NCBI GenBank assembly: GCA_963922205.1
Contig: CAWUHX010000236.1
Span: forward strand, 186,001 to 250,000
DNA length: 64,000 bases
DNA from: Romanomermis culicivorax
Lineage: Eukaryota > Nematoda > Enoplea > Mermithida > Mermithidae
Reading direction: 5' to 3'
Shown here: positions 22,914-47,247 of the stretch, one piece after another
Numbering within the stretch: the stretch's first letter is position 1
How the letters are laid out: every line of letters starts with the position of its first letter
Position numbers and translations under genes: made by a program
Notes under the pieces: generated by a model
The model's input: only the letters and a program-made list of their open reading frames with translations
Databases searched by the model: none
What the model was told of the DNA's origin: nothing

Positions 22914-23166
22914 TGATTAGAGAGGGTTCCACAGGAGCAAGAGTGATTCCGGCCGCAGAAAAGAGCTCCCGAAATGTCCAATCAAGAGTTGGCGACACAG
23001 CTACGAGAATTGAAAGGGACCCTTGAAGCTTTATTCAACATAATCGCGAATGCCGCCACTGAGGACTATGAGAGGGAAGCCGACAGTCGCCGACAGGAGC
23101 CGGATAGACAGGTTAGACCATGTGTTAGGGGTGCAGAAAGAGACAACCGTCTCACTGCTGAAATGA

Positions 23167-23607
23167 ATGCAGGCGCAGGGCCTAGTAATAGGCCTGAATT
23201 TGATGAAGGGCAAAGGCTTAACTTTGAGCCCAAAAGTTGGAGAGGCCTTCATGATACGAGTCAAAGTTGGCAACGTCAAAACGAATGCTTTAATCGACAC
23301 TGGTGCTCAATGTTCTGTCCTTTCATCCGGCCTCATCAAACGAGCTTTCGATAAACAAATGCTTTGCTTGCCTGTTTGCGGAAGGATAAAGGTCGCCGAT
23401 GGTACCACTGTGCTCATGGTCCCGTTATCATCCCGATGGGATCCCCATTTGGCGAACATTTGGTCAAATGTGTTGTTCTGGACGATGATGATCAAGATCA
23501 ATTTATTATCAGCACCGACTTCCTCGCTCATCCTGAAATCAATGTCATTCTCAACTTCAAAGAAAAATTTCTCGAAATCCAAGATGTCAAAATGCTGCTC
23601 AAAGTAG
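23167..23607 (+). pseudogene. copy A: retroviral-type aspartic protease, frameshifted
   Basis: The frame contains [15 protein letters not shown], the D-T-G-A active-site loop of a retropepsin. The protease would cut the polyprotein into mature enzymes. The homologous continuation is in the next frame from about 23364 (containing [20 protein letters not shown]), so the fold is split by a frameshift near 23350. A dimer of such subunits would be needed for activity. The frame then runs on out of phase to 23607, so its C-terminal third is not meaningful. It sits immediately before the RT of copy A. Confidence 0.7.
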
Positions 23608-25586
23608 TCGCTTCGATCAAACCACAACTATTTCTATCGACATCCTGTGACAATATTTTGGAAGAAATCCCTACAGAGGAACAAGTGAGTATTTGTGATA
23701 ATTTTTCAGAAACTGATGGTCAAGTTGAAGAAATCAAAGCTGAACAACTGATACGGCAGGCTCAACCTAGTCCACACCAACCGCCATCACGGCAGCTGGA
23801 GGTCACAGAGCTCACTGAACCTATCTTCTTTGTCGCTCAAGCATCCGTCTCGATTTCACCAAACTGTCAGCAATGGATAACTGGCACCGTTTTTCCCTCC
23901 ACGCTTGTTTCTATTCCTGATTTGATTGTTCAACCATTGACCACCAACAATGTCGCCGCTGAATTCCCAATTGAAACCGCAGTCGTCAATGTCACCAACA
24001 GTCAATGCCTGCTCCTATTTGTCAACAATACGCCAAATTGCATCAAACTTCGACCGAACCAAATCGTCACCATGGCCAAACACACGTTGAAGTCTATTGC
24101 TGCCCTGATCCAGGACTGCGATATCTGTGTTTCAGTTGCCACAGCCGATTGTGATTTAACAGACCATGAACCGGCTGCGCTGGACAAATCGCTACCACTA
24201 CTTCATACGGACAACCAAAAATTGGAATTCGCTTTGAACAAGATGACTGAAAAAACCCGCGTTACTGCCGCTCAAAAAGCAAGGGCCCTCAGTATGCTTC
24301 GACAACACCGAGACGTCTTCAGCCTCCCCGGCAACAAACCTACCTTCACCAAGGAATTGACCGTCAGCATTGACACTGGCACTGCAAAGCCTGTATCTCG
24401 TCATTATTACCGCACCGCGATGGAGCAAAGACCAATTGTACTTCACCATATTCAAGAAATGCTGGACAATGACTTCATTGAACAATCCCACTCGCCCTGG
24501 GCTGCACCGCTGTTCCTCGTAAAGAAAAAAGATGGCTCTTGGAGACCCGTTGTCGACTACCGTGGAATAAACAATGTTACGCCCAGCGACAAATTCCCAA
24601 TCCTGGGCATTGACGACTATTTGGATGCTATGGGACAAGCAAAATTTTTCACCACCCTCGACCTCAAAGCCGGGTACTGGCAGGTACCCCTCAACAACGA
24701 CTCCTGTGACAAAACAACCTTTATCTGCCAAGAAGGTTTGTTTCAGTTCAAAGTTTTGCCGTTCAGTTTGAAGAATGCGCCTGCCAAATTTCAACGCTTG
24801 ATCAAACAAATTCTCCACCCATATATTTGGGAAATTTGCCTCGTCTACATTGATGATATTATCATTTTCTCGAATTCGTTTGAAGAACATTTGGAGCATT
24901 TACAAATCGTTTTCGACACCCTCGGCCCAGCCAATCTCATGCTTTGGCCCGACAAATGTGAATTCCTACCGCCGCAAGTCAAATTTTTGGGACATCTCCT
25001 TAGTGCTCGTGGAATCGCTGCCGATCCGGAGAAAGTCAAAGCCATCGCAGAATATAAATTTCCGATGACCAAGAAAGGTATGCAAAGCTTTCTAGGCTTA
25101 GTCCAATGGTGCAAGCGATTTATCCCGAAATTGGTGACCTTGTCCAGTCCTTTGTACAGACTCCTACAGAAAGACGCTCAATATATCACCACGGATGAAC
25201 ACCATGCCGCGTTCGAAGGTATCAAGAAAGCTCTCACATCATCGCTTTTTCTTCGCTACCCAGTCTATGATGGTAAAGCCCAATTTGTCATCCAAACTGA
25301 CGCCAGTACGACCACCATCGGAGCAATTTTGTACCAGGAAAATGGCAACGATCAATGGGTCATCACCTACAACAGCCGCGTACTCACTGATGCGGAAACC
25401 CGCTGCAGTACAACTGAGTGCGAATGCCTCGCCATTGTCTACAGCTTCAGGATGTACCGCCATTACGTTTACGGCCAAAAAGTTATTGTTCGCACTGACC
25501 ACAAGCCACTCGAATGGCTCAAAGAGGAAAAGCACCAAAATTCGCGCCTCCAACGTTTCGCGATAAGCCTCCAAGACTACAATTAA
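23364..25586 (+). pseudogene. copy A: Ty3/gypsy reverse transcriptase and RNase H
   Basis: The 740-codon frame begins inside the protease and includes the second half of that domain. RT motifs follow in order: [34 protein letters not shown] (about residue 430), [18 protein letters not shown] and the catalytic YIDD (about 495-498). The thumb follows with [20 protein letters not shown]. RNase H shows the catalytic Asp in [16 protein letters not shown] and RTDHKPL. The frame ends at a TAA at 25584-25586, in the middle of RNase H. The same frame continues beyond it with [16 protein letters not shown], so this TAA is a nonsense change and the copy is probably inactive. Codon use is C-rich, unlike copies B and C. 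The family assignment (Ty3/gypsy, by domain order PR-RT-RH-INT) is firm. Confidence 0.88.
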
Positions 25587-27082
25587 AAAGTCGAATACGT
25601 CAAAGGTAAAGACAACGCCTGCGCCGATTTTTTGTCCAGAAAAGATGACCGGGACAAACCACTGATCCCGAATACTGAAAACTTAACCGCTGGAATTTTC
25701 CAGAAAAATTTTCGCCCTGCTGGTGCATTATCAGATGCTGACTTACTGGTACCCGATATACTCCCAGCAGCGGCCTCACCGCCCACGGAAATTGACGCAG
25801 ACATCAACGCCATCACCGGTGCCATGACAAAGAAACCCATCACTCAACCCACACTCTCGGATTCCATGCTGTTGGCCGCCAACTACGCCCCGCCTCTGGT
25901 TGATGCCATAACCATGGCCTCCGCCAGGTCAAGGATACCCGACAGTTAGTCATTCCCATGTCCATGGTTGACCAAACGCTGCATCAATTCCATGGCCCGA
26001 AAATTTTGAATCACCAAGGATCAAACTGCACGCTAGCAGCCATCAAAGCTCATTTTTGGTGGCCCCACATGGAATAAAACGTCCGTGATTGGATCAAGTC
26101 CTGCAAAATTTGTCAGTTGATGACACCGCGCATATTGCCGCCCCCGCCACTATTACCAATCCAGCCCATGCACCCTTTCGAGATTGTCACCACCGACATT
26201 GTCAATATTTCCCCCGTAGGTGAGAAACGCCACTATGTTATTGTTTTTCAGGACTACTTCACCAAATGGGTTCCCGTGCACCCCATTCCAGATCAAAAGG
26301 CGTCAACCATTGTCGAATGCTTTGTGAACAATGTTGTCCTCGCCCATGGTAGCCCACTCATCCTTCTTTCTGATCAAGGTGGATGTTTCACCTCGAAATT
26401 TATGCAAGAAATTTGTGAACTAAAAGTCCGAAAAGTCAAAACGACCGCCTACCACCCACAATGCAATGGAATGGTCGAGCGCTTCAATCAAACGCTTATC
26501 GCTCAACTAAAGAAATATACCGCCGACGACCCCAACAATTGGGAACGCTACCTACCATGCGCCATCTTTGCCTACAATGCAACACCGCATACAGCAATGC
26601 GCCATTCACCCTTCAAATTATTACGCGGTCACGAACCCCGAATTCCATTGGACTAGGATTGTGCTCGCCGTCTTATGCTACCGCTCAACTACGATGCCTA
26701 CCAGCACATCTTGACTCAAGCGCAGCTCAAAATGTACGAATTGATCAAATTGAACATCAATAAGGCCGCCAATGCCAGCAAGAGATACTATGACCAGAAA
26801 GCCGGCAAAAGAGAAATTAGCGTGAACAACCTTGTCCTTTTGGTCAACAATAAAAAAGGTAACAAAATTCAACCAGATTTTATAGGCCCATTCATCGTCA
26901 CCGACATCAGCAATATTGATAACAATACCGTTACAATTGACACCTTGGATACGCCTGACCGACCGCAGCTTGTCGCCATTTCTCGACTGAAGCCTTTTAT
27001 TCCACACCCAGCCCGAGATACTTTCATCGCCGAAGCCCATGGATCACAATGCCAACAAATCGATGCCACCCAGCAACACTAA
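25587..27082 (+). pseudogene. copy A: end of RNase H, then integrase
   Basis: After the stop the RNase H tail continues, followed by a variable linker and an integrase. The HHCC zinc finger spans about 25975-26117 (HQFHG, NHQGSN, CKICQ) and is broken by a TAA at 26075-26077. The catalytic core begins in the frame from 26117: TTDIVNIS with the first Asp, LLSDQGGCF with the second and NGMVERFNQ with the Glu. I count 34 residues between the second Asp and the Glu, against the usual 35, so one residue may have been lost. A TAG at 26654-26656 interrupts the core's end, and the frame resumes at 26675-27082 with the C-terminal domain (FIGPFIVTDISN, ISRLKPFIPH). Integrase would insert the cDNA; this copy looks dead. 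Confidence 0.85.
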
Positions 27083-28797
27083 CGTCAGAGTGCAAATTTT
27101 TGGTTGGGATGACCCTCTGGATTTTTCTTCTTTCCCTTTTATTTTTCTTCATTCGATCCTATTCTACAGCAAGGCGTAAATTGTTTGCTGATCCCGACTG
27201 CCAAAACGTTGATGCCTACAATGGACGATTTTTATTTCAACTACTTTTTGCATACTAATTTTTGTTTATTTATCCCCTTATTATATATATGTATATTTTC
27301 ACTTGCCCCATAACCTTGGGTTCCCACTCGACTCATCCTCACCACAGCCGCAAAACAGTGGTCAGCTACCGTGACTTTTGCCCATGGCCTAGCTCGTGCA
27401 ATTTCCGACGCCATGGTTCGCCACTGCCTCGACTGGTGCCATAGACCTTTTTCTCGATGCCTCGCTCAAGTGGGATGTTTGGAAATGGCAAGACCGTTCC
27501 AGTCTTGGTGAATTTTGTGCCCAATGTTACCGCCACCTGAGTGAGAATATCATTTTTGCAATTTTTCCATCAATTTCCATCAAAATTTTCTTTTCATTTT
27601 CAAATCAAAAATCCAGATGTCATTCAGTTAGTGAGTGGGAAGTCTGCCCCATAGTCTCCTTCTATGGTGTCACACCACTATTCTAATTTTTCGAATGCAC
27701 TCTTTTTTTGGTATAACTACGGAGCTGGCTCGAGCTTTCAGCTTATTTGCTAACTGTTCCCGCCACCTTTTGCCGACAACAGTTTGGACTCGGACCATCG
27801 ATTTGACGCATCACAGCTTATCGTGCATCTCCTGCTGCTTGAACGCCACTTTGTGAAGTTGACGGCCACTCAAAAACCAAAATTTGACTTGACACCCGTA
27901 CCAAAGAACAGATCGGCAACATGGAGCCCATCACAGTTTAGTTTTTCCAAAAATTTATTTTTCATTTCAAAAACTACCCTCATTCTTGTGCAAAATTCAC
28001 TATCTAAATATAGCCTTTGAATCGCCCCAAAAAAAATTGTTCATCTGTTTACTGTATAGTATAATCGTATTTCTCACTGTTTTCTTGTATATATCTTTGG
28101 TTTGCTCGTTTGTTTTGTATCAATCATCTTCTCCAACTTCAACCATCTTCGATGGATGCCCACCCAATTGCAGCATGCAACTAGGATGTTCAACTTGGCT
28201 GGCTCTACCGCTTTCAATTTTCAATTTCCTCACAATGTCAGATCAACATAACTCGGCTGGCCCTGCCACGGATGTTTAACTCCCGTGGCACCACTGCTTG
28301 GTTTTCGTCACCAGTCCGATTTCCTGCTACAACTTTCTCATCTGCCCCGGAATGTTCCACCGCAAGCCGCTGCCGATAGTTTGTCATTTTCGCCTGCCAT
28401 GTAATGTTTTCGCTATCTTCAATCTTCCCCGGGACTGGTCGGACCTTCGCTCTCCGAATCCCCAAGGTAGTGGCCAGCCTCACCCTCCCATCCACATGGC
28501 GTCGTATGCTGGTGCACTCCAGTATATCGGTGCGGATGGAGTGACAACGCGAGCTGCGGTGTTGCTGAATTTACAGCCTCGCTAATCATGCATAGTCGGA
28601 AGGTCTCACCATATGCGCTGTCCAAAATTGGCTCAAACAACCCCAACAACTCCGTCAGCCCCACTGTGTGATACTGAAGATCCCTTCGGCTACCCCAGTG
28701 AAGGCCAGTGGCGGAGCCCTTCCCCTTGCATGTGGCAGAGCCCTTCCCCTTGCATGTTTTGGTTGTTTCTTGACGATCACTTAAGGTGATCTACCGC
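27083..28797 (+). other. copy A: long 3' region without a clear gene
   Basis: Between the pol stop and the polypurine tract lie 1.7 kb. One small frame at 27049-27258 holds a hydrophobic segment (MTLWIFLLSLLFFFIR). No counterpart of the large ORF2 of copies B and C is visible. From 27537 this stretch belongs to the 1,829-bp direct repeat. Two tandem copies of GCCCTTCCCCTTGCATGT lie near 28717-28762, and a small hairpin (GATCAC...GTGATC) lies near 28776-28791. Confidence 0.45.
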
Positions 28798-28811
28798 AAG
28801 GGGGGGAGGGG
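28798..28811 (+). other. polypurine tract of copy A
   Basis: AAGGGGGGGAGGGG directly precedes TGTTGTAGTG. A purine run next to TG marks where plus-strand DNA synthesis starts in LTR retrotransposons. The same occurs at 38378-38391. Confidence 0.7.
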
Positions 28812-29173
28812 TGTTGTAGTGTGTTTCTGCCGATTTTTCACAATTTTCTAATAGATTTATCAATTTGTAAAAACGCCCACAAGTACAACACATCCAACCA
28901 TGCCCTACCTGGCCCAGCGCGACGGTTACTGTAGAAGACGGTTTTGGTGAATTAGTCAGTGTATATTATTGATTATTCTCGTGTGCCTCATCTCTCATAT
29001 TATAATTATCATTTTACCTGTACATTACTCGCTTCGTTTTTATACTGGTAAGACGTCATATTTTTTGGAAGGGGCGATTTGAAGGTAAGTTGTATAAATA
29101 AATGTTTAGTTAGAAAAGTGTTTTATTTGTGTCCAAAAGTGTGTTACCTTGTCTGACTAGTTTTAGTCAGGCA
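28812..29173 (+). mobile_element. copy A LTR (start firm, end approximate)
   Basis: The LTR begins TGTTGTAGTG after the polypurine tract. TGTTGTA is repeated inverted as TACAACA at about 28880. It holds a possible polyadenylation signal (ATAAATAAATG near 29101) and a strong splice donor GAAGGTAAGT at 29091-29100. The end is placed at TTTTAGTCAGGCA, but this could be off by tens of bases because no second LTR of the same element is available for comparison other than the duplicated one. Confidence 0.5.
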
Positions 29174-29365
29174 TTTCTTGGAAAGGTAGTATCCTGTTCT
29201 TGACTTCTCGCCCCTGAGTGAGGAGTCATTCCAAGGTTTAGGGCAAGCCCAGGGAAGCACTGGCGTTAAGGTCGATCCCTGGCTATCTCTCCTGCACATC
29301 AATTCCCCTTGCTGATTCTACACCCCTTCCTCCGACCTGACGGATCAAGGAGGCAAGAAATTGGT

Positions 29366-30413
29366 TTGAGGGAGAGGCTCGAGGGATGTCAGGGAATGGA
29401 TAAAATACTGCGTTGTCTGTCAAATGGCAACTGCAGGAAAGCCATCCATTCCTCCGTTGATACCCATTGTGCCACAAGGTCCATTCGACATTGTATCTGT
29501 GGATATAGTAGGAATTTCGCCTTTGGGAGAAAGAATGCCTTATGTTATAGTTTTTCAGGACTATTTCACAAAATGGGTTGAAGCTGAGATGATCCCAGAT
29601 CAATCAGCAAATTCAGTTGTGAATGCGTTCTTAGAAGCTATAATATTTAGGCATGGAACACCAACGAAACTCCTAAGTGACAATGGATCTTGTTTTACTT
29701 CGGATTTAATGAAATCAGTTTGTCATTTATTAGAGTGTAAGAAGATCTTCACTACTGCTTACCACCCTCAGGGTAATGGTATGGTAGAGAGGTTCAACCA
29801 AACTCTAATAAAACAACTGAGAAAAGTAGCTATCGGTGAACCTGATAGCTGGCCAAGATATCTCAAATCAGTGGTCTTTGCCTACAATGCTACCCCACAC
29901 GCAGTGACGAAGGCCTCGCCATTCGCGTTGTTACGGGGCCATGAGGCAAAGTTCGGGATGAATTTGTCAAAAGCCCTTAAAATAGTAATGCCCATGAATT
30001 ATGAGGCATACAAATTCATCCTAACAGACCACTTAACCAGGCTTTATAGTATTATTGCCGAAAATATCCAGAAAGCAGCGGAAGCTAGCAAAAGATATTT
30101 CGACAAGAAAATTAAAACCTCGGTTTTTAAAGAAAATGATTGGGTACTTCTTAAAGTTGATAAGCAAAAGAAACTAGGCTTAACTTGGGAAGGACCCTTC
30201 ATTATAACTGATGTTTCCAGGTTAGAGGATAATGTCATAACAATCGCACGTTATGATAATCTTTTGCTACGGCAAAAGGTTTCAGCAAGTAGGCTGAAAA
30301 TTTTTCGCTACGAGACTACACGATGGCAGAACTACGTAAAAAATCGATCGAATCGTCTTACTGTACCTTCGCAATTAGCGGAGAGTAGTGCGACGCCCGG
30401 TGTAGTTTCGTAG
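29366..30413 (+). CDS. copy B: integrase, 5'-truncated but otherwise intact
   Basis: Homology starts immediately at the repeat border, in the frame reading RDVREWIKYCVVCQMA, the second half of the zinc finger. From the ATG at 29424, 329 codons are open. The catalytic triad is complete: Asp27 (VSVDIVGIS), Asp86 (LLSDNGSCF) and Glu122 (NGMVERFNQ), with exactly 35 residues between the last two. The C-terminal SH3-like part contains DWVLLKVDKQKKLG and WEGPFIITDVSRL. RT, RNase H and the first half of the finger are absent, replaced by the 1,829-bp repeat. The intact frame suggests a young copy or purifying selection. It is followed by the separate ORF2. Confidence 0.88.
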
Positions 30414-30843: not shown

Positions 30844-33800
30844 ATGGGTACGCCGAACGATTGTACTCGGACGTACAACGCGACGGACGATGAAGTCCAA
30901 TTTGGGGAGCCGCACCCGCGGCAGAACAATCGCTATTTTTTGGTCGACGGTAAGCAACCATTTTATATTTGTAAATAGTTAGGTAAGAAAATGAGCGGAG
31001 GTTACGCTCGTCAGGGGTGTTTTGTAAGACTGTTTCTGTGCCCTTTCTCGGACGAGCTACCAACTGGGAGTTGAGAATTTAACACAAAAAATTAGGTAGA
31101 AGGGGGTGGCAAGGGCCAAACCTAGGTGATCCGAAAAAGACTTCGGTCGAATTAGGTGATCCGATTAGGGGAGGTTTTTGTCATTCCCGCTCCCTCTGGT
31201 TTCCGCAAAGCGGCGAAGAAGGGGATTAGCAGGAGTTAGTCGCGGAGATCAAGGTTGTGATCGATTAAGCGCTGATCGAGTAGCAAAGGTGTGTTGGGTT
31301 AGAGTGAAAAACACCTAATTTCACATATTTTTGCCTATCAATTTTGGTTTCTATAAAGGGACACCCAACGGCCAGAAAGGCTAAAAATCAAGTTCCCGCT
31401 CCAAAATTTCAAAAGTTTAAAAGTTAAAACGGTGTTCTGCACAAAGGTGCTAGAGTTTCCCCAAAGAGTTAAAGGAGTAATAATGGGTAAAATTACCCAA
31501 AGAGTGTAAAAAGGGTCACGAAAATGCACATAAGGAGTTAGTAGAGTATGTCTGGCTAAAACTTAAATCTCTCCTGGATTTTTCAGACCACAATATCCGT
31601 CGGGCAATGCGGATAGCGGAGTTAGAAAGGTGGTTTTTTGCCACTTTTGAGTTCTGGCCGACCAACCCCATCGAGCCGATAATTGTTCCCATGGGAAGTG
31701 TGGAAAGGGTGATAAAACACCTAGAAAGCAGCACTTTCCGAGGCATGAGCATTATCGGCTTCGATGTAGAGAAGGTGAACCGAGAGGACGCTGGAAAGCT
31801 GTTTAGGTGGGGGTGCGAAAACGAAAAAGGCAACCAGTTTGCCAGATTAGTTTCGTTCGCCCATCTAAATGGCAAAACGTTCGTAATCGACTTAACGTTG
31901 CTGCAAGAGCAAGAGTGGAACATATTGTTACACTTTTTACGCTCAGCGACGTTGTTAGTCGGTTACGCCGTTTTGGAAGATATAGTTTCAATTATCAATG
32001 TCCGTGGATGCGGAAAAAGCACCGATGGTCGCGATTTGTCTGACGCGATTAGGTGTAGTATCAAAGATGGAAATCTAGGAAGATACTATGACCTAAGCGT
32101 CACGGCAAAGCAGATCATGGGAAGCGAGATTACCAAATCCAGGAAAGCAGGTATCTGCCCTGAGACATTGAAATTGAAGGGACTCTTTGCCGAAATGTAT
32201 TTGGCTGACATCGGTCCTCACCAGACTGATTTCAGTCTCTTACGTAATAGACAAAGTGTTGCCAAAGAAAGAGTTCCTGAAGAAATGCTGCAGTACGCTG
32301 GTATGGACGCGTATTTTTCGTTGGCAATTTTTATGGGAGCATTTCACTATGGGTACGTGATTGAGCTATGTGGGGGAGTTGCCAACTTTCCTCACGATAT
32401 AGTCGATCCGGCCCAGATTGAAATACTCTCATATAAATTTTATCAGTTCTACTCATATATAGTTACGGACTACAAACTACGTAACTTTGTGGGTACACCT
32501 GATATTGTGGTTAGGCAGCCTGAGGCCACCTACCACATGATGCGCCAAGAAATGTACGCAAGATGGGCCACACAAGTGCAAGAAATAGGGCCTAATTTTC
32601 GTTGCCATCGGGACATATGCAATCCTAGGAAGGGGAAAGAAAATTTGCCGTGGCGAGGCATTTATCCAAGTGCTTATCACCAGGGTAAAAAATTAAAGCC
32701 CAATTCCTATGATGAGGCAAGTGATCCCGATGACGACGAAATGATTAGGCCTGAACAGCGCTTGTCGGCCAAGGATAGGTTGCGCCTACAGCTAGTGGAG
32801 GAGATGGCGCAGGGAAAGCAGTATCAGGAACTCACTCAACCAGCATCTTTAGTTTGGTTCATCGATACAGCCAGGAAAGTTGTCAAGCTACCCCAAGATC
32901 GTCAAAAGCAAGCACTACTAGATGCTCTAAAAAATCATCTGGTTCATGTGCCTATTGATATCGATCCTGGGGTAGGCTATTTTGACAAAGATCACTGGAA
33001 GCCTCAGTTGGCGGAGTATGCTAAGGCATTCGAGGAAAAGCGGTTCTCGGAACTGCAAGCCGCGTGTGCCTTAGTCCCGCTGGCCTTTCACGTGATCTGG
33101 CCCCACAGCAGAAAGGAACTGGACTTTGTAATGGCCGAAATGTTCAGTTACAGGTTCATTACATCGTTCAGCCCAGAGCTGCAGGGCAAAATAAAAGAAA
33201 TGGCTTGGCGGTCAGACGAAAGGCTGTCCCAATATCTTATGTTGGCGAAAACGCTTCCAAACATAGAGTATGAGGTACCCCGCAAAGGTGCCGGAATGTA
33301 TGTTTGGATGAATCGATTCGGATTTATGCCGATTCGATTAAGATTGTGGAAAAATGCTGATGTGTGCGCGCCGATCCCTGGCAGCCCTGACAGGATAACT
33401 ACGGACAGTAAGAGCTATAGCTCAAATCCGTATTATTATGTTAGGTTCTACCATATCGAGCTGGCACAAAGAACGCCATCATTAAGATATGGGGCAACCT
33501 GGCAAACGAAAATCGACAAGGTTGGAGACGTCTATGCGTCAAAAGCGGAAAATAGGGAGTATAGTATAGCCTTCCCTACAAAGATTTTTGACCTTAGACC
33601 TCTGGCCTCGGATTTACCGGGAATTCTACACACATTTAGTTATAAAACGGGTGAAGGTGTTGTCACCAAATTAGCTGGCAAGATTAGCCCCATCAAGACT
33701 GATAGTCTGAAAGATGAGAGCAAACAGCAGGCTGATGTCGGTGTTGTTGAATTTCCGATACTTTCAGGTCAGGAAGTCCAAACGTCGGAAAGCGAAATCT

Positions 33801-35680
33801 TCAGCGATGCAGTGGGACTGCCGGCTGAAGATGAATCGCCAGACCAAGGACTTCAGGACGAGGACGTGACTGAGCTGTCGGAAGATGAGCAGCAGCAAGA
33901 GCAATCAGTTCCGGCAACGGAACTGATGCAAGCTCAAACTGCTCAGACGCAGTCCGACCTCGACAACCAACGTCGATTAGCAATCATTCTAAAGATGGAA
34001 GAGGAGGCGAAGCAAAGAATTCGGCTCCAACGTGAACAAATGGAGGAAGAATTTGCAAAGAACGCGGCGATTTACAACGAAAAACTTCGCCAAATGTCAA
34101 TTCAATTCGGACTCCAAAAAGATGATACCGCAGCGCCCGAATTGGAAACAAAGGTAGTCGTATTAGAGCCACCATCGCCAATGAAGGTAGACGACGATAT
34201 GCCCTCCGATAAGCTGGTTATTGACGAAACGAAAGCGGAAACGCCGGATTCGGAGATGACGGAAAGTAGGGAGGTAATAGCGTTTTCTGCTGATGGGGGT
34301 GTTCCAGGGTTATACTCAGCCAAAGTCGTTCAAAGTATGAGAGAGAAGGGTTGGAACGACGAGAAAATATTATTTATGGCTGAGAGGAAAAAGAAAATGA
34401 GAGTAAAGGAGAAGGAAAAGAGGAAGAAGGGTATTAAGGGAGCAAAAGTAGAAGCGAAAGAGGAAGAAAGTAAGACGGCGTCTTCGTCCGTCATATCGAC
34501 CTCAACTCCTACGATTACCTCCACTACTACCCCCACTTCTCAAATTACTTCTACCTCAACTGGAACACCATCATTGGCCACATCTTCAGTGGTCACTGCA
34601 ACTCTGGATAGCACATCCACAACTAGTCAAGCTTCAGGCGCAATAGGCCTTGCGATGGGGAAACCGATACCGAAAGGTCAGGCAAAACCCAGCAAGGACC
34701 AAAAACCTGGAGTGGCAGCTAGTCAAGTGCAAGGGACTGCTCCTAGCAAAATTAAGCAGGCACAGGCTGCTCAGGTAACTGAAACGCCGGAAGTGACTGC
34801 GGAAAAATTTAAGGACAGTCTCTTGGACTTCTGGGACGTTTATCAGCCAAAAGCCAGAGAAGCTGGCCCAATATCATTTTTTACGAGTGCAGTGGCCAAA
34901 TATTTTGCTTTCGAGCAATTTGAGTCAGAAAGAGTCTTCTTCATGGTAAACGACGCCGTTAGGGAAATCTACCGGGACTACGAACAACAGTTCAGAGTCC
35001 AGGGAGCGTTTCTCTATGATCGGACAAATTTACCTGAAGAACTCTGGGAGAGGGTCATGTATGACTTTCTCCCCAGGTGGCTCAAGTCGGAGAGAGCACC
35101 TGATGCTTTTTCCTCGGTAAGGTATTTGGTTATGATGCTATTCCTCGTGTTGGAATGCGCCCCGCTATCCCCGATGCATATTGGAAACATTTATGCCAGG
35201 GCGATGGTGGCGGCGAATAACCGACTGTTGAGGGTGTATAATAACCACGATACCCCCTTGGAATATAAAACGGCCTTTCGATCTGTGATGCTTAGTAGCA
35301 ATCACCAGGTCGGAGTGATGGGAGCCAAAAGAAGTGCCAGTTCAGACTTGCAAAGCTCTGTTAAGTTCAGTAAAGCTCAAGACGGAAAAACTGGCGCTAC
35401 TTTGAAGGTTCCCGGACCTCAAGGTCAGGGTCAAGGCCAAGGAAGCCAGGAAATAGCTCCAAGTACGCAAGGAAAGGTGCAAAAGACTGGTAACCGAGGC
35501 CGAGGCCAGTTTCAGTTCCACAACCCCAACCGGGGTGGTCGTGGAGCGGTGCGTGGCAGAGGTGCCGCGCCTCAGGTGCAAGGAAGAGGAGGCCAACAGG
35601 GCCAATGGGTATGGAGGCCTTACGGAGGTCGTGGAGGAGCCCAGAGAGGGGCGCAAGGAGGCGGCGGGCCGCAACAGTAA
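30844..35680 (+). CDS. copy B: ORF2, DEDDy 3'-5' exonuclease with coiled coil, helical domain and RGG tail
   Basis: Two exons join in frame: 30844-30949 (the exon itself opens at 30773) and 31587-35680, with a 637-bp GT-AG intron, giving about 1,399 residues. Numbered from the Met at 31607, residues ~48-245 read as an RNase D/WRN-like exonuclease. Exo I is GFDVEKV (Asp53, Glu55), Exo II is [10 protein letters not shown] (Asp125) and Exo III is [15 protein letters not shown] (Tyr230, Asp234), so all five DEDDy residues are present. A conserved region with [10 protein letters not shown] follows (~460-580). Then come an acidic/Gln stretch, a coiled coil (~785-835), a Lys-rich patch (~926-955), a Ser/Thr linker, an all-helical domain (~1064-1240) and an RGG/RG tail (~1290-1357). 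Copy C preserves the same domain order. The family predicts 3'-5' trimming of RNA or DNA. The RGG tail and helical domain may bind nucleic acid or form particles. The role is inference. Confidence 0.85.
30950..31586 (+). other. ORF2 intron of copy B
   Basis: The donor GTAAGC follows GTCGACG and the acceptor GATTTTTCAG precedes ACCACAAT, leaving a split GAC codon (phase 1). Copy C has an acceptor at the same codon position (42951), which supports a real conserved intron. The intron contains GATCCG-rich direct repeats near 31125-31165. Confidence 0.65.
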
Positions 35681-36379: not shown

Positions 36380-36644
36380 AAGGGGGCATGAATGACCAAA
36401 AAGGTTCAGAAAACTGCTTTGACTGTATTAGGGCCTGAAAAGGTTCCAAAATTGTCATTGCGGCGTAATATGAATCTTTTTAACCTCCCGTTGGTCAGTT
36501 TCGAGGCTCGAGGGATGTCAGGGATGGACATAGTCTATCTCAAAGTTGTGAAGAAATAGCCGAAGTCGACGCGTTTTGCGTCGACGCCGATTTGCATAGA
36601 CACCGTGCATAAATATGCCGGTCGTCTATGTTTTTGGTCATTCA
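36380..36644 (+). mobile_element. copy B: polypurine tract and candidate short LTR
   Basis: CCGCAAGGGGG at 36376-36386 resembles copy A's polypurine context (CCGCAAGGGGGGG). Two bases later TGAATGACCAAAAA (36389-36402) begins a segment that ends with its exact complement TTTTTGGTCATTCA (36631-36644). TG...CA ends with a 14-bp inverted tip after a purine tract suit an LTR of about 256 bp. A MITE inserted at this place would look similar, and no flanking duplication is visible, so the LTR call is tentative. Confidence 0.45.
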
Positions 36645-37116
36645 GTGATTTATTGTTTGTTTTTTATTGAAAGAAAAATATCGGCGGCCCAGTAGGGCAT
36701 AAATTTATATTATTTGTTATTTTATTGTGGTGGAGCACGTCCGCCGTAAATACAACGACCCTCGGCCGATCGCCTTTGGATTACTCGCAGCGGAGGGAAC
36801 GCAGGTTAGACCCCGGACTTCTGGAGAGCCACCCAGCGTGCAAGTCTACATTTACAACTCAGTTCTCGGCCTGACTTCTGATTTTGCCCCTGGTTTGAAG
36901 TTACTTGAGCTCAGGGTGTTATCATTTCTTCTGCAGTTCTTCGGGACGAAAGCAGGAGATTTTTTGTTGAACTTGAGACTGACTGAACTGTTGCAAGCTT
37001 ATTCTACCTAAGGTTTCGGCCTGATTAGGTGAATTTGTGAGTGACTGATTAGGTCTATTTTTGGTATCAAATCCTTTATTTATATCTCTCAACTTCCACC
37101 AAGTCTCATTTCAACA
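36645..37116. other. linker between copy B and the right direct repeat
   Basis: A frame at 36727-37011 (94 codons) has no recognised motif. The segment could be LTR remainder or flanking DNA. Confidence 0.3.
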
Positions 37117-38945
37117 CTGAGTGAGAATATCATTTTTGCAATTTTTCCATCAATTTCCATCAAAATTTTCTTTTCATTTTCAAATCAAAAATCCAGATGT
37201 CATTCAGTTAGTGAGTGGGAAGTCTGCCCCATAGTCTCCTTCTATGGTGTCACACCACTATTCTAATTTTTCGAATGCACTCTTTTTTTGGTATAACTAC
37301 GGAGCTGGCTCGAGCTTTCAGCTTATTTGCTAACTGTTCCCGCCACCTTTTGCCGACAACAGTTTGGACTCGGACCATCGATTTGACGCATCACAGCTTA
37401 TCGTGCATCTCCTGCTGCTTGAACGCCACTTTGTGAAGTTGACGGCCACTCAAAAACCAAAATTTGACTTGACACCCGTACCAAAGAACAGATCGGCAAC
37501 ATGGAGCCCATCACAGTTTAGTTTTTCCAAAAATTTATTTTTCATTTCAAAAACTACCCTCATTCTTGTGCAAAATTCACTATCTAAATATAGCCTTTGA
37601 ATCGCCCCAAAAAAAATTGTTCATCTGTTTACTGTATAGTATAATCGTATTTCTCACTGTTTTCTTGTATATATCTTTGGTTTGCTCGTTTGTTTTGTAT
37701 CAATCATCTTCTCCAACTTCAACCATCTTCGATGGATGCCCACCCAATTGCAGCATGCAACTAGGATGTTCAACTTGGCTGGCTCTACCGCTTTCAATTT
37801 TCAATTTCCTCACAATGTCAGATCAACATAACTCGGCTGGCCCTGCCACGGATGTTTAACTCCCGTGGCACCACTGCTTGGTTTTCGTCACCAGTCCGAT
37901 TTCCTGCTACAACTTTCTCATCTGCCCCGGAATGTTCCACCGCAAGCCGCTGCCGATAGTTTGTCATTTTCGCCTGCCATGTAATGTTTTCGCTATCTTC
38001 AATCTTCCCCGGGACTGGTCGGACCTTCGCTCTCCGAATCCCCAAGGTAGTGGCCAGCCTCACCCTCCCATCCACATGGCGTCGTATGCTGGTGCACTCC
38101 AGTATATCGGTGCGGATGGAGTGACAACGCGAGCTGCGGTGTTGCTGAATTTACAGCCTCGCTAATCATGCATAGTCGGAAGGTCTCACCATATGCGCTG
38201 TCCAAAATTGGCTCAAACAACCCCAACAACTCCGTCAGCCCCACTGTGTGATACTGAAGATCCCTTCGGCTACCCCAGTGAAGGCCAGTGGCGGAGCCCT
38301 TCCCCTTGCATGTGGCAGAGCCCTTCCCCTTGCATGTTTTGGTTGTTTCTTGACGATCACTTAAGGTGATCTACCGCAAGGGGGGGAGGGGTGTTGTAGT
38401 GTGTTTCTGCCGATTTTTCACAATTTTCTAATAGATTTATCAATTTGTAAAAACGCCCACAAGTACAACACATCCAACCATGCCCTACCTGGCCCAGCGC
38501 GACGGTTACTGTAGAAGACGGTTTTGGTGAATTAGTCAGTGTATATTATTGATTATTCTCGTGTGCCTCATCTCTCATATTATAATTATCATTTTACCTG
38601 TACATTACTCGCTTCGTTTTTATACTGGTAAGACGTCATATTTTTTGGAAGGGGCGATTTGAAGGTAAGTTGTATAAATAAATGTTTAGTTAGAAAAGTG
38701 TTTTATTTGTGTCCAAAAGTGTGTTACCTTGTCTGACTAGTTTTAGTCAGGCATTTCTTGGAAAGGTAGTATCCTGTTCTTGACTTCTCGCCCCTGAGTG
38801 AGGAGTCATTCCAAGGTTTAGGGCAAGCCCAGGGAAGCACTGGCGTTAAGGTCGATCCCTGGCTATCTCTCCTGCACATCAATTCCCCTTGCTGATTCTA
38901 CACCCCTTCCTCCGACCTGACGGATCAAGGAGGCAAGAAATTGGT
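37117..38945. repeat. 1,829-bp direct repeat, right copy
   Basis: This is the second copy of 27537-29365, at a constant offset of 9,580 bases. It includes the polypurine tract at 38378-38391 and an LTR start at 38392. It ends at GAAATTGGT, here joined to the N-terminal part of the reverse transcriptase of copy C. The upstream flank differs completely from that of the left copy. Confidence 0.9.
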
Positions 38946-41900
38946 CAGAGCCGGTCCGAAACGCCCATTTATTCCTCAAATACAACAAGAGTTCAGGAAA
39001 GCTTTATACACTATGCTGGCTAAATCCAACATACCATCTGATCAATTGGAACAAGCTCTGAGATGTCTTGCAAAATATGGAGACGTATTCAGCTTGCCAA
39101 ATGATCCTCAAACTACTACACTTTATTTGACCTGAAATAAATACAGGTGATGCAGCACCTGTTGCAAAACAGTATCACAGGACTGCCATAAATTTAAGGC
39201 CACATGTTTGTGAGCATGTATAAGATATGCTCAAAAAGGGTGTGATAGAGCCATCAAAGTTGCCTCAGGCAGCTCTGTTATTCTTAGTAGGTAAAAAGGA
39301 TGGTACCAAGCGACTGGTAGTGGACTTTAGAGGTATAAACGAGGTCACCAAGGATGATAAGTATTCCATTCCAAGAATGGATGACTATCTAGACTGTCTA
39401 GGGGGAGCCAAATTTTATACCACCTTAGATCTCAAATCTGGATATTGGCAAGTGCCAATAGATGAAGAAAGCAAGGAAAAAACTGCTTTCCTATTCCAGG
39501 AAGGGCTATATCAATTCAAAGTCATGCCTTTTGGCTTAAAGAATGTGTCAGCAGAGTTCCAGTGCATGATGGAGACGGTCTTGCACCCATATGTGTGGAA
39601 AATCTGTCTTGTATATATAGATGATATTATAGTATTCTCAAACACATTTGAGGATTATTTAGTTAATATAGAGCTAGTCCTGCAAGCTCTTAGGAAGGCT
39701 CACCTGACCTTGAAGCCAGAGAAGTGTGAATTTCTCCCGGAGAGAGTCCATTGTTTAGGACATATCTTAAATTGGGATGGCGTTTCCCCAGATCCGAAGA
39801 AGGTTGAAGCCATTAAAGAGTCTCCATTTTAGAGTCCAAAAGAAAACTCCAAAGGTTTCTAGGCATGCTACAGTGGTGTAAGAAATTCATACCAGGTCTA
39901 GCTAAACCTGCAGAACCTTTATACAAGTTAACTGGAAAAAGCAGTGTTTGGGTAGTATCCGAGGTTCACCATCAGGCTTTTTAGAGCCTAAAGGATGCAT
40001 TGTCATCAGTGTCTTTTCTAAGGTAGCCGGTTTTGGACGGGTCTGCGGACTTTGCCCTTCAGACGGATGCCAGCAGAGCAGCACTGGGAGCAGTTCTCTA
40101 CCAGGAGACCAAGTCCAACAGCTGGGTTATAGCTTATAATAGCAGAATTTTAAAAGTGGATGAGAAAAAGTGGTCAGCCACGGAAAGAGAAAGCTTGGCC
40201 ATTGTATATGGCTTGAAGTTATACAAGCACTATCCAGTAGGTCACAGAGTGATCATAAGAACTGATCACAAGCCATTGCTTTCGATGAAGGTCAATGTGA
40301 TGACTAATGGTAAGTTGAAGAGATGGTACTCATTTATCTCTCAGTTCAACCATAAACTAGAGTATGTGCCTGGAAAACAAAATGCCATGGCAGACTTTCT
40401 TTCTAGAATGGATAAACCAGATGATCAAATGGAAAAGATACCGCCAAAGTGGGAACAAATGTTCTCAGAAGATAGAGGAGAGTCAAATCTCAAAGATTTG
40501 GAAGCACAGAAGATTGAGAAAATGTATCTTAATCTGGTGAGTAGATTCAGAATTTTGACAGATCGGAATCCTGAAGACGGTACTCCATTGTATCCAGAGA
40601 AGAAAACTGAGGAAAATCAAGGGATCAATACAAATCCAATATTTACACAGATATATCTTGAAGATTCTGAGGGTGATCCAGAATCCATTTCACCAGCAAA
40701 CTTGGTAAATGCGGTAACTACAAGGAGCATGGGGAAAGAGGCGGAAAAGAGTAATCAGGCTCAGGTCCAGCCTGATGGCAATCAGGGCCAGGTAAAAGGA
40801 AGTAAAGGTAACCAGGAGAAAAGTAAGGAAAAGAGAGTTACCTGGTTATATTCCCAAAAGGAACCGGAATTTACTTTGGCAGACCCCAAGGAAAGTAAGT
40901 TGTCAAAAGGGCTCATTAGAGATGATCTCATGGCCCTCTTGCAGAGAAAAGATGAGGTATTGAAACCCTACTTTGATAGATTGGTTCTGAATGGGGCAAC
41001 CAAGTATCATAGTGGATTTTATATCCAGAACAAGGTGTTATACCAGGAAGTCGGACAAGGAGCTGATGATCAAGTATTTGTCCCATCCTGCCTAAAAGAC
41101 AATACTTTGCACCAGTACCATGGTGCCATTAGGATGACTCATCAGGGGTTCAAGAGAACTCTTGCTATGATCAAAAAACGGTTCTGGTGGCCTGGAATAG
41201 AAAAGGATGTTAGGCACTAAATCAAGTTTTGTGGAGTATGTCAAATGGCTAACCCGGAAAAGGCTGAAGTTCCACTGATACCAATAATCCCAGAAGGTCC
41301 TTTGGACATTGTATCAGTGGGCATCATGGGTATTTCTCCACTAAGTGAGAAGAGATCATATGTCATAGTCTTTCAAGACTACTTTACAAAGTGGGTTGAA
41401 GCTGAACTGATCCCAGATTAGTCAGCTAGCACCATAGTAGATACATTTCTACAAGCCATTGTATTTAGACACGGGACTCCACGGAGATTACTCAGTGACA
41501 GAGGAGGTTATTTTACCTCAGATCTGATGAAAGAGATCTGCAATTTGTTAGAGTGTCTAAAAATTTACACAACAGCTTACCATCCTCAGGGAAATGGTAT
41601 GGTTGAAGGATTCAATCAGACACTCATAAAGAAGCTCAGAAAAGTGGGGATTGAGGAAAAAGACAACTGGCCACGATATTTAAGAGCTGTGGTCTTTGCC
41701 TACAATGCTACCCCACATGCAGCAACAGGACAATCCCCTTTTTTATTGCTTAGAGGTCAGGAGGCAACCTTTGGGTTAAACTTATCGAAGGCATACGATA
41801 TTGTAATGCTGGACATTAATGCAGAGGCTTACAAATTTGTGTTGACAAATTATCTAGTCAACTTGTACAGAGATATTGCTAAAAATATCCAGAGTGCTGC

Positions 41901-42156
41901 CGAAAAATCAAAGAAATACTTTGATAAAAAGTCCAAAGAACACAAATTCAAAGAAAAGGACTGGGTTCTGCTAAAAGTAGATAAGCAGAAAAAATTAGGA
42001 CTGCCTTGGTCTGGTCCATTAATAATTTTGGACATTTCACGAGCAGTATAAAATGTTGTCACCATTGTTCATTTGGACAACCCGCTAAATTGCCAAATTG
42101 TTTCTATCAGTAGGTTGAAACATTTTCATTATGAGACCACTAGGGTCTTGCCGTGA
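38946..42156 (+). pseudogene. copy C: Ty3/gypsy pol (RT, RNase H, integrase), decayed
   Basis: Homology begins at the repeat border, just before the RT, so protease is missing. RT motifs include LVVDFRGINE, TTLDLKSGYWQVP and the catalytic YIDD near 39616. Stops or shifts occur at 39133, 39222, 39830 and several between 39830 and 40030. RNase H resumes in the frame from 40033 (QTDASRAALG, RTDHKPL). A charged linker rich in K, Q and N (about 40720-40850) precedes the integrase finger (HQYHG, THQGF), which is broken by TAA at 41218-41220. In the core the first catalytic Asp is replaced by Gly (VSVGIMGIS against VSVDIVGIS in copy B), while the second Asp and the Glu remain. Another stop is at about 41419. 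The copy is dead but clearly of the same family as B. Confidence 0.85.
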
Positions 42157-42951
42157 ATAGCGGGAGCCAATCAGGACACATAACAAGAGGAAAATACATC
42201 ATTTTCTTATATGGCGCATACAGTTACGACTGGAGCACCAGAGCAATTGTTCTCATTTTGAAATTTGCTCAAGGGGAATCCATGCCCAAAGTTGCACCAA
42301 TTTTTTTTGTGTATATCTTGCACGTGTAGGTGCTCATTTTAAAAATATTTAGTAGTGTTTTGTAATATAAATATGAGTTAGAAGGGATGAAAAATGGGAG
42401 TACCGAGAATCGGAAACTCATAGCCAATCAAGGAATTTCCTAATTTAGAAATAGACCTGCTATCAGCGAGAATTAGACCTTTCCAGGGAAACCTAGAACC
42501 TTGGGTTCAGCCCGTTCAATTTTTATTCATTGAATTTCAACAAAAATCAACTATTTTCAAATCAAATTATATCACTTTTTGAAATCAAAATCATAAAAAA
42601 TTATCAATCTCCAGTGCTATAAAAATTGTAAATACTGAGCGCCACAAATGGGGCGTAGTTGGTTGCTCAAGCAGCTGGTCAGAGATTGGTGTCCGATCAA
42701 ATGATGGACAATCAGATCAGGTCTACCCTTCCCAACATATAGAGGTAGCAAGGGAAAGATTTGGTAAGGTGTTAGTTGCTTACCAGCAATGTTTGTTATA
42801 TCAGTGGCTCACCTAACACAAGCCTGCACTAATTTATTTTTCTGCAAAACTTAACCCGCTTGGTGTAGTGGTGTTGGTGTATTATAGACCTAAAATAGAT
42901 GCTGAAAAAGGGGAATAAATAACCAAACTTATATTATTTTTTATCATTTAG
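42157..42951 (+). other. copy C: spacer between pol and ORF2
   Basis: It corresponds in position to 30414-31586 of copy B. A possible remnant of the first ORF2 exon lies near 42650-42740, ending before a GAGGTAGCA donor-like site. The acceptor TTATCATTTAG ends at 42951. I see no polypurine tract plus TG start here, which argues against an LTR between the two genes. Confidence 0.4.
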
Positions 42952-45900
42952 ACTATAACATCAAATGGGTCATTCAAGTCCATGAATTGAACCAATGGTT
43001 CAAGGGAACCTTTGGGTACTGGCCGGCTAATCCCAAGGAACCAGTCTTGGAAGACATGGGTAAGGCCAGCCAGGTACTCCAATACGTCCTAGAAGTCTCC
43101 ATCTTCAGAGGACATCCAATTTGTGGATTTGATGTCAAAAAAGTACATCAAGATAAAGTTGCCGCCTTGTTCAAGACGAGAGAGGTTGACAATCTGATAG
43201 GAAAACAATTTGCCCGATATATTAGCTTTGCCTTAATAAGTGGTCAAACCTATGTCATCGATACCACCAGCTTAATGGAGAACGAATGGGTAAGTTTACA
43301 TGATTTCCTAAATTCAGATATGCTATTTGCCGGTTATTCGGTACTAGAAGACCTTATTATCATATATAATGTATGCGGAGAAGGTTGAGATGGCAAAGAC
43401 AGGGACAAAACTGTCCTATTGTGGGAACATCTAAGGAGGACCAGAGGTCAATAATTTGATTTAGACTGCTTTGCCTTGACTATAGTAGGGCCAAACCTAG
43501 AGAAACAGTGTTTTCAGATGGGTATATGTCCCGAAACCTTTAGGTCAAAGGGACTGTTCACAGAATTTTACTTAATAGATGTGGGCCCTTACCAGTATGA
43601 TTTCACACTTAAGGCGAACCGTGATCAGTTTGCCAAAAGAGGCATATTACCGGAAGAGCTAAGGTACACAGCTCTAGACTCGTACTATTCTTTATTAGTT
43701 ATGCTTGCCGCGATCCATTATGGCATGGCCGATTACCTGCTGATGCAGATGCAGGTTTTTGAGCATGATAGAATGGAGCCCAAGCAGATCAATACAATTG
43801 CCCTTCATTTTTATCAACAATATTTGATAATTCCAGGGCATATAAATTGTGAAATGGGACTAGGTTACCAGGCCATGGAAACTGATCAGGTACAGCCAAA
43901 CATGGTGTACCACATGATGAAGTGTGAAATTTATAACTGTTGGGCCGTCAAAATGCAGGGAAATAACACAGGTTATTATACCCCAGCAACCGACTGAAAT
44001 CCGGCCAGGGCACCAGATGTGCCATTACCAAGTGGATTCTACCGAAGGGATAGCAAACCACTTAAAAATGACGGTTATAGTGAAGACACGGATCCCTACA
44101 ATATTCAGGATGTTCAAGTACCAGACTGGAGTAATATCAGCCAAGATATCCTGGAAAATCTCAGAAGTGGTAAGTCTTACTGGGATTTAGATGGTAAGAT
44201 ATTGCTGATGCTGTATGAAAATGCTAAGCTATACTGGCTACAAGCCAGGAAGCCTGATGATATCCCATAAGAAGCATTCTCTGGTAATAATCATTACCCA
44301 GTAGACATTGAAGGCCACAAAGGAGTCTATAAGACAAACTTTTATACACCAAACTTGGCCAAAATATCCAAAGTTTTAGATGAGCAAAACTTTATGGAGT
44401 TAGAGCGAGTCTGTAAATTTATGCCTTTGGCCTATCATTCGGCATGGCCTCATTCGAGAGCAGAGTGGGATTTCGAAACAGCACAGCTGCTAAATTATAG
44501 CTTTCTAAATAGTTATAGTAGAGATGGCCAGGAAGCGATAAGACAAATGTCCTGGAAGTCAGGTGACTGCCTGGCCTACTATTTAGAGTTAGCAGCAATA
44601 TTGCTGCCATTGAAACCCTGAGATCCACTGAGAATAGGGGTATATGCAAAGCAAAATCGATTCAGATTTGTCCCGTTGTGATTTAAAGAAGCTGAGGAAG
44701 CTTTGCAAATTGGTGGCTATAAATTGATACTAAAGGAGGAAGCCTATAAAGTAAACCCTTACTATTTTGTAATCTTTTATTATATATGCTTCGAGACTTT
44801 GACACTGGGGTTGTGGTATCCCATGAGGGAAGACGTCGATCCAACGGACTAACCCATGGCATACGCCCCACGAAATCCACTCGAAATCAGACTGGAGTTA
44901 GTCAGCAACAGCTTTCCGGAGAGAACATTGGCCTCAGATATGCCTGAGTATACATTAAGCTATACCCCAGCCAGTGAGTTAGTCTCAAAGGTACCCTTAA
45001 ATCGTCCTTCAATATCCAAGACAGCGCAAGCTGGAGGGTCAGGACAGACAGGTCAAGTCACAGCAGCAAGCCCTGGTGCGGATAGTCAAAACACAGCAAC
45101 CAGCGTTGGTCACTGGAACTACACAAGCTGCTGTGGTGGTAGTTGTGGTGCCGCCGCAAATGCTACCAGCGGTGGCACAGCCGACTCCAGTACCTCAAGT
45201 TTAGCAGCTGGTAGAAGTAGAACCGGAAGTCGTCACCATAATGCAATCTGTGCCTCCAGCGCCAGCTGTTTTACCAGCTAAAATTAAACAGCTGTTGCCG
45301 AGCATACGGAATTCAGACTCTGAGTCCAGTTCGGAGGAGGAAGAAGAAGGTGAGATTCTGGAATCTGCGAGCCAGATAGTGGAGGAAAAAGACTCCATGG
45401 AGGCTAAGATGCAACAACAGGAAATTGAGGAGGAAAAAATCCAGACTCAAATAGACAAGGCTGCAACCAAAATGTTGGGAATCAATGTTAGACTGGATAA
45501 GATGCAGGAAGCATCCCAGGAAATACCTGTCAAGGCTAAAGATACTAAGGCTCATGACCTGCAAGCCAAGCATGAGGTCCTTCAGGCCAAAATTCAGGAA
45601 CAAAAACGCCTGGTGCAGCAGGAATTCCTGCACCAGCGGGCGTTGCAGAAAAAGTTGTAGGAGCAGTCATACGCTGATGACAGCTCAGATTCAGCTGTTG
45701 CGGCCACAGAGCAGATGAAAAGGGGAAGAATTTATGATGAAGGAATCCCCAGAGTTTATTCTCCTGAAAAAGTTCAGCAGATGTTGGTCAAAGGAATGTC
45801 GGAGAGATTTATCCGACAACTAGGTAGAGAAAAGATAAGACGCTGAATCCGACTAGGTAAGGCGCGGGCACATAGACTAGCAGCCAAACAGCAGTTGCAA

Positions 45901-47247
45901 GGAATGCTCATGACTGGTTCTGAAAATGATGCCTACAACACAGCCAAAGAAACCATGACCCCAGACATGATGACAACACAAAAGTCGAAAACGGAGACCT
46001 CAAAGAGTCAAATGAAATGGGATAGATCGACAACATCTGCTGCAATGTACACCCAGACCCGAACTGTATCGAAAATGGGCGTAGAGGTTAGTATGTCATC
46101 TGGCAAATCTAAGTCCATTCCCACAAGCTATACGGCCAAGAGTAAGAAACAGGCGGGAAGCATGTTGGTAAAGCCTGATTTTGAATCAGAGGAGAAATTG
46201 ATCAAAAAAGTCAACTTGAATGTGGTAGTTGGTAGACCCCCAAGGGAACCACCACAATATGTCAATTCTGGTCAATTAGCCAACACTCTGATTGATTATT
46301 GGGAATGGCAAAGGGAACAGAGGCAAATGATTGGCCCAATCTCATTTGAAAATCCAGAGGTGGCCAATTATTTTGCCTTTGACTGCCAAGAACAGCCAAT
46401 GGTCAATAGAATGATCAATGATGCCATGGCCGAAATTTATAATAATTACCACGAGCAATTCCAAATGCAAGGTGGTTTCATGTTTGACGGAGAATGCGTA
46501 CCTGAAGAAATTTGGGAATGGATCATTTTGGCTCTCATTCCCAGATGGCTTCAGGATTACGATGCTTCAGACGTCTTTACAGCCATCAGGTATGTGAGCC
46601 TGATGATATTTTTACACTTGAATTCTGCTCAGATCACGCCCACGGCAATCAGTAGATGGTATGCCCAGGCGTGTTCATTTGCCAACAGACAACTAGTCAT
46701 CGAAGCCCAGGGAAACCATGTAGATGAATTCTACATTGCAGCCTTTAATCAATATATCTTCATGGGTTCACAAAGGTTAAACCATATGGGTGTGAAAAGG
46801 AAGGCACCGAGCAATGACAAACTGCAGCCTGATAAATATCAGGGCATGGATGCCAAGAGCCCAGGTAAGTTTAAAGTGCCTAGACTTCCACCCGCCAAGA
46901 AACAACAGCTGTCGAAGCAACAACCATCAACTTCGACCAGCCAGAGGTCTTATAGTGGAGCCCCTAGTTCTTCATAAAAAAGTCCACTTTCTCAATCTCA
47001 ATCAATATCTTCAAAATCATTAAATTCAACTTTTGGATAACAAAGTTAACAATATAGGAGTTCTACTAGCAGTGGCTCAGCACGGAGACAACAGGGGAGA
47101 GATGATGCATTCTCAAACCCTGCTCCATACCGGGGTAGACCCGGGTACGGCAGAGGCAAAGTCAGAGGAGGTTTTCCGAGGGTGCCCTCAGTGACCCTAC
47201 TGAGGCTGAGGAAACTGGCAATGCTGAGGCCAAGACCCATAATCTGA
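42952..47247 (+). pseudogene. copy C: ORF2 with exonuclease domain, decayed
   Basis: Fragments of one protein occur in order at 42952-43388, 43476-43997, 44019-44270, 44355-44621, 44856-45281, 45241-45660, 45895-46977 and an RG-rich tail to about 47247 (YRGRPGYGRGKVRGG). They align along the whole of copy B's ORF2. Exo I is mutated (GFDVKKV, Glu to Lys), Exo II keeps VLEDL, and Exo III keeps the Tyr and Asp (YTALDSYYSLL). The motifs WPHSRAEWDF and the C-terminal helical block ([17 protein letters not shown]) are recognisable. At least six stops or frame changes separate the pieces. Preservation of domain order in a strongly diverged copy shows that ORF2 belongs to the element and was not captured only once. 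Confidence 0.82.

Follow-up and report, generated by a model that had tools for sequence, protein, structure and literature searches.

A post-pol open reading frame with a predicted DEDDy-type 3'-5' exonuclease domain in a long terminal repeat retrotransposon of the nematode Romanomermis culicivorax

The closest described counterparts of the gene considered here come from bdelloid rotifers, in which the long terminal repeat (LTR) retrotransposons Juno and Vesta were reported in 2017 to carry, after pol, a third open reading frame (ORF3) with a DEDDy domain (PMC5408684). In the parts of that report on which we draw, the authors describe these ORF3s as having no coiled-coil or transmembrane domains, and find that the extra enzymatic ORFs of rotifer elements show no significant intragenomic departure from neutrality (PMC5408684, Discussion). 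They propose that such proteins process the 3' ends of element RNAs, and name a MUT-7-like role in silencing as an alternative, although they doubt that a self-limiting element would last (PMC5408684). According to the consulted sections of these papers, DEDDy ORFs are also present in the Athena/Terminon Penelope-like elements (PMC6431247, PMC5408684), and a DnaQ-like exonuclease domain has been counted among the well-known accessory domains that LTR elements carry (PMC6338049). Here we describe such an arrangement in a nematode, based on a 64,000-nt stretch of the Romanomermis culicivorax genome (the window, to which coordinates refer unless a contig is named). The gene in question, ORF2 (31607..35680, + strand; 1357 aa from its ATG, in a frame already open from 31484, giving 1398 aa), is an ORF3-type, post-pol reading frame of an LTR retrotransposon.

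ORF2 resembles the Juno and Vesta ORF3s, as the consulted parts of the rotifer report present them, in having an RNase D-like DEDDy domain in an ORF of its own, located after pol and before the 3' LTR. The two differ in host (nematode rather than rotifer) and in the catalytic set, which is altered from DEDD to DEED in the rotifer elements (PMC5408684) and intact, including the Tyr, in ORF2. In addition, the nematode protein is longer (1357-1398 aa) and possesses additional conserved regions as well as a tail rich in Arg-Gly (RG). Its ratio of nonsynonymous to synonymous substitution rates (dN/dS) lies well below 1, whereas no significant departure from neutrality is reported for the rotifer enzymatic ORFs (PMC5408684). 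Terminons and Athena are likewise retroelements with a DEDDy 3'-exonuclease ORF, but they are not LTR elements and are giant and located at rotifer telomeres, again as far as the cited portions go (PMC6431247, PMC5408684). An earlier note on this DNA had held that no LTR element with a DEDDy exonuclease was known, a statement that Juno and Vesta contradict (PMC5408684, in the sections used here); the rest of its interpretation is partly supported, as described below. Our preferred reading, to which we give a probability of roughly three in four, is that ORF2 is the ORF3 of a nematode LTR retrotransposon and would encode an auxiliary DEDDy enzyme acting on 3' ends.

By sequence comparison, the N-terminal part of ORF2 (residues 38-252; 31718..32362, + strand; supported by Pfam, hhalign, an AlphaFold model and structural matches) is confirmed as a DEDDy-type 3'-5' exonuclease domain with the full catalytic set. 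The motifs GFDVE, VLEDI and YAGMD begin at residues 51, 122 and 230, and the five residues that the earlier note had assigned to a DEDDy site (Asp53, Glu55, Asp125, Tyr230 and Asp234) were all found at the claimed positions and, in order, in DEDDy columns. The Asp and Glu of motif I (Asp53-x-Glu55; 31763..31771, + strand) lined up with 43/43 DEDDy sequences trimmed around that motif, and motif III (Tyr230-x3-Asp234; 32294..32308, + strand) aligned with 42/43, with one gap; a further alignment, A5, agreed in both cases. The Asp125 of motif II (31979..31981, + strand) was aligned in A5, as residue 88 of the cut domain, and in 5/8 MAFFT runs, and was misplaced in the remaining three, all of which contained a wrong-frame piece, as well as in one further alignment.

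Profile comparisons pointed to the same family. PF01612 (DNA_pol_A_exo1) was the sole Pfam family detected in ORF2 (E = 0.054 with the full-length ORF as query and 0.0013 when the query was cut to residues 40-248). The window also contains a diverged second copy of ORF2, broken by stops (copy 2; 42951..46938, + strand, located by alignment to ORF2), which can be aligned with the greater part of ORF2 (35% identity over 719 columns and 30% over 412, the stretch in between being unaligned) and which retains the integrase-then-ORF2 arrangement that had been noted for it. When ORF2 and copy 2 were compared by hhalign with 63 DEDDy sequences, the probability was 78.6% (P = 1.7e-5, single comparison), a score reached in 0/200 column-shuffled controls; with a second family of ORFs (see below) added to the query, the probability against the DEDDy profile was 95% (E = 3e-8), in this case without a shuffle control. 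The E-values obtained by hmmsearch with the 63-sequence profile were weak (0.14 for a copy 2 piece and 0.16 for ORF2), and these two sequences ranked first and second among the 272 ORFs of the window. A profile built from the second family only placed an unrelated ORF ahead of ORF2, and none of four copy 2 pieces had a relevant match in a Pfam scan.

Relatives of ORF2 were not found among ~5.8 billion protein sequences, of which the 7991 candidates with the most shared words and, in another search, 4806 candidates were compared, nor in viral_contigs and genome_contigs, nor in phage records, for which residues 1-431 served as the query; an integrase query likewise had no match in viral_contigs. 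PDB sequence searches, NCBIfam and PHROGs gave no DEDDy match for ORF2, and when E. coli RNase D was used as protein query, the 120 matches listed out of 5089 were all close enterobacterial relatives. The similarity of ORF2 to the cellular proteins WRN, EXD2, Pol I, RNase D, Rrp6 and Nibbler is near the limit of detection. Another cellular member, MUT-7 of C. elegans, is a nematode DEDDy exonuclease tied to transposon silencing; it is a host gene, unlike the element-borne ORF2.

A structural model of the domain computed with AF2 from alignment A5 had a confidence (pLDDT) of 74.9 and matched the structures of WRN, the Pol I exonuclease and RNase D, so that the comparison with WRN and RNase D proposed in the earlier note gave matches for the A5-based model. 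The domain is accordingly predicted by this model to have a DnaQ/RNase H-like fold.

The anatomy of the element was established from full copies elsewhere in the genome (359 Mb in 595 contigs), in which the cuticle-collagen domain PF01484, characteristic of nematodes, had 50 matches, as compared with none in 14 control genomes, in support of a nematode host. The ORF2 exonuclease domain was matched at at least 143 scored places, some with stops, out of 3145 first-look candidates. Fifteen of these places, the window among them, shared the top score, and 39/143 had an open frame of 1396-1398 aa that was stop-free in the match. From the best 15 we drew six copies in which the exonuclease domain was 100% identical and the 1398-aa frame uninterrupted. 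These span 13,942-13,954 bp; all six are bounded by LTR pairs (599-608 bp, 98.8-100% identical, with TG...CA ends), and 4-bp target-site duplications were present at 5/6, in agreement with the earlier placement of ORF2 directly after the integrase of a Ty3/gypsy-type element.

The order in the full copies is LTR, gag-like region, protease, reverse transcriptase (RT), RNase H, integrase, ORF2 and LTR, with the protease-to-integrase order seen in one scanned copy (L186:2085-8804), and from this domain order the element appears to be of the Ty3/gypsy type. A separate frame lies upstream of ORF2, 2237-2240 aa long in 4/6 copies and 1385 and 1671 aa in the others; in the scanned copy it encodes the domains from protease to integrase. 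The protease is preceded by ~900 residues that occupy the gag position and have an RG-rich stretch of their own, with no Pfam gag match. Because ORF2 is located between the integrase and the 3' LTR in the full copies, it represents a post-pol ORF3. The element that carries it is multi-copy and appears recently mobile.

Comparison of seven copies (21 non-independent pairs) gave dN/dS values of 0.026-0.084 for ORF2. The pooled ratios of synonymous to nonsynonymous differences were 318:54 in the middle of the protein, 155:70 in its low-complexity part and 112:6 in its C-terminal region; the exonuclease domain had 46:0, but since the copies had been picked for an identical domain, the zero there is not evidence of selection. 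Between the window and one other copy (L187), ORF2 is 99.0% identical and the 3' LTR 92.9%, so that ORF2 is more alike than the LTR, in the same direction as the low dN/dS. These sequence comparisons are a sign of purifying selection on ORF2.

A second family of LTR elements in the same genome, distinct from the ORF2 element, supports the pattern of an integrase followed by a DEDDy ORF. A genome search with PF01612 gave 80 matches with E <=1e-3; every one exceeded the cut-off, and the strongest had E = 4.5e-11. In 26 of the 30 best-scoring of these loci, an integrase-like tblastn match (26-43% identical, E of 1e-7 or better) lay on the same strand, no more than 1.5 kb upstream. One such ORF, of 608 aa and different from ORF2, has an unambiguous DEDDy domain that matched PF01612 with E = 1.4e-10 (41.7 bits, reaching the cut-off of 23.6), and the profile of the second family matched the DEDDy profile with a probability of 96.9% (E = 2e-10). 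Across 26 aligned ORFs of this family, the catalytic D, E, D, Y and D were kept in 25, 24, 26, 26 and 26, respectively. The median dN/dS in this family was 0.12 (range 0.042-0.411; 17 ORFs, 136 non-independent pairs, some with dS near saturation).

LTR pairs were found in 3/3 second-family copies examined (620-628 bp, 99.2-99.8% identical), among them the copy at L228:6026-L229:3552; one measured copy was ~7.5 kb long. The long frames of two copies contained RNase H and an integrase zinc-binding domain, the latter just under the cut-off in one of the two, and neither an RT nor an integrase core model matched in a Pfam scan of these frames. Since these were not seen, the copies may be deletion derivatives, possibly non-autonomous and amplified as such. 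ORF2 and the 608-aa ORF are alike only at motif III (21 columns, probability 42%, E = 2.7e-4, 0/200 shuffles), and with the likeness limited to this motif we do not claim a common origin.

Several observations weigh against an active DEDDy exonuclease kept by selection in ORF2. The PF01612 score of 13.7-19.0 bits falls below the gathering cut-off of 23.6, so that the Pfam check suggested in the earlier note yielded the expected family as the sole match and left it under the curated threshold. A narrower profile of 20 sequences, mostly RNase D, scarcely detected ORF2 (P = 0.023), which was absent from the matches of an hmmsearch with that profile. The surroundings of motif II read GYAVLED in place of the usual HN...D, and motif I of the broken copy 2 reads DVK, so that the equivalent of Glu55 is lost there. 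On the structural side, the usable model depends on A5, an alignment that included DEDDy sequences cut back at motifs I and III, and its fold was obtained with no control fold of an unrelated protein; AlphaFold run on a longer stretch from the three window sequences alone reached a pLDDT of only 31, and the Foldseek TM-scores were modest (0.46-0.54 for WRN and ~0.3 for EXD2). Finally, picking copies with open frames may bias the overall ORF2 dN/dS low.

How ORF2 would be expressed is suggested by a splice-acceptor-like sequence, TTTTTCAG (31579..31586, + strand), 20 nt upstream of its ATG. The two ORF2 copies of the window begin to align at TTTTTCAG, and the acceptor AG is retained in copy 2 and in 6/6 other copies, where the sequence of the latter reads TTTTTTAG; the + strand of the window contains TTTTTCAG at 11 places. 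It is plausible from these features that ORF2 is made from a spliced ORF3 mRNA. Beyond the exonuclease domain, the protein contains a conserved C-terminal region with no assigned fold (~residues 1061-1270; 34787..35416, + strand), which is kept in copy 2 and had no match in a Pfam scan, followed by a Gly/Gln/Arg-rich tail (35417..35677, + strand; 31% G, nine RG dipeptides) that is possibly an RNA-binding tail.

Under the preferred reading, the ORF2 protein would be produced from the spliced mRNA, would bind nucleic acid through the RG-rich tail together with the conserved region before it, and two-metal-ion DEDDy catalysis would strip nucleotides from 3' ends. The substrates could be element RNA or single-stranded cDNA, or RNAs acting on the element, and the protein would serve as an auxiliary enzyme, neither envelope nor Gag. 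Trimming of RNA or cDNA 3' ends appears the likeliest role, and a counter-silencing role is possible.

The best-surviving rival, which we nevertheless consider unlikely, sees in the domain a DEDD fold whose catalysis is dead or dispensable, an RNA-binding module of the Egalitarian, EXD1 or Maelstrom type that helps to assemble or localise element RNA. Against it, ORF2 has the complete set of five catalytic residues and each is kept in 24-26 of the 26 aligned second-family ORFs, a retention that a purely structural role would not need. Less likely again is an extended version of the counter-silencing idea, in which a DEDDy exonuclease acting against host RNA silencing was acquired repeatedly by nematode LTR elements and is maintained in them by selection. 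In nematodes, RNA-dependent polymerases act on UG tails, and the enzyme would here trim the 3' ends of element RNA fragments (such as UG tails) or of small RNAs. An envelope-like protein for cell-to-cell transfer, with the exonuclease secondary, would suit the env position after pol and the splice-acceptor-like site before the ATG; it is very improbable given that a Pfam scan of ORF2 found no env match, that a Kyte-Doolittle plot showed a single moderately hydrophobic stretch (maximum 1.79 at residue 1174) and that the C-terminus is RG-rich. The idea that ORF2 is the Gag of the element, relocated to a position after pol and joined to an exonuclease, draws on its RG-rich tail, its large size and the invisibility of gag in the window copies, and is scarcely credible now that the full copies place ~900 residues in the usual gag position upstream of the protease and RT. 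An equally remote alternative, an unrelated host or other-element gene beside a truncated integrase, would fit the 5'-truncated window element amid other retroelement pieces, and is set aside together with the Gag reading by the full copies, in which LTRs enclose the pol frame and ORF2 (6/6) with target-site duplications at 5/6, and by the diverged second copy, which retains the integrase followed by ORF2.

In the window itself, the ORF2 element has lost its 5' part and lies amid other pieces of retroelements. Its homology to a full copy begins at 29385, inside the integrase (29385..30413, + strand; rve E = 1.3e-14), and it ends with a 601-bp 3' LTR (TGTCAGGGA...TTTCAACA; 36516..37116, + strand), identified by comparison with full copies. 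The segments 29374-29395 and 36503-36524, at the integrase truncation point and the start of the 3' LTR, share 22 bp, possibly a breakpoint microhomology. A direct repeat of 1829 bp, 100% identical, occupies 27537-29365 and 37117-38945; we considered it as an LTR pair and rejected this, the LTR ending at 37116. The right repeat copy begins directly after the 3' LTR, and the left copy has the same initial bases, CTGAGTGA, with a different flank, resembling an unoccupied insertion site. Perhaps the assembly has fused an empty with a filled haplotype, or the repeat stems from a genuine rearrangement.

The second element of the window is represented, upstream of copy 2, by fragments of RT, RNase H, H2C2 and integrase (39227..42144, + strand), identified by Pfam and sequence comparison. 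A third element (22416-27258) contains RT, RNase H and an integrase ~50% identical to that of the ORF2 element, and tblastn found no ORF2-like match in it. At 10778-11842 (- strand), two adjoining frames rich in hydrophobic stretches give the impression of nematode-type chemoreceptor pieces; Pfam found nothing relevant in them.

Within the parts of the open-licence literature surveyed, we found no description of a nematode retrotransposon with a DEDDy ORF. What is new here is the nematode host, the occurrence of two families in one genome, the long multi-region protein and the sign of purifying selection, so that enzymatic, non-envelope ORF3s are now known in nematodes as well as in rotifers. 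In the portions of their report cited here, the rotifer authors left undecided whether such ORFs serve the element (PMC5408684). The many open-frame copies of the ORF2 element, together with the well-studied transposon silencing of nematodes, make the question of benefit to the element a testable one. If the counter-silencing version were true, ORF2 would be a transposon-borne opponent of a silencing pathway whose own machinery includes a DEDDy exonuclease.
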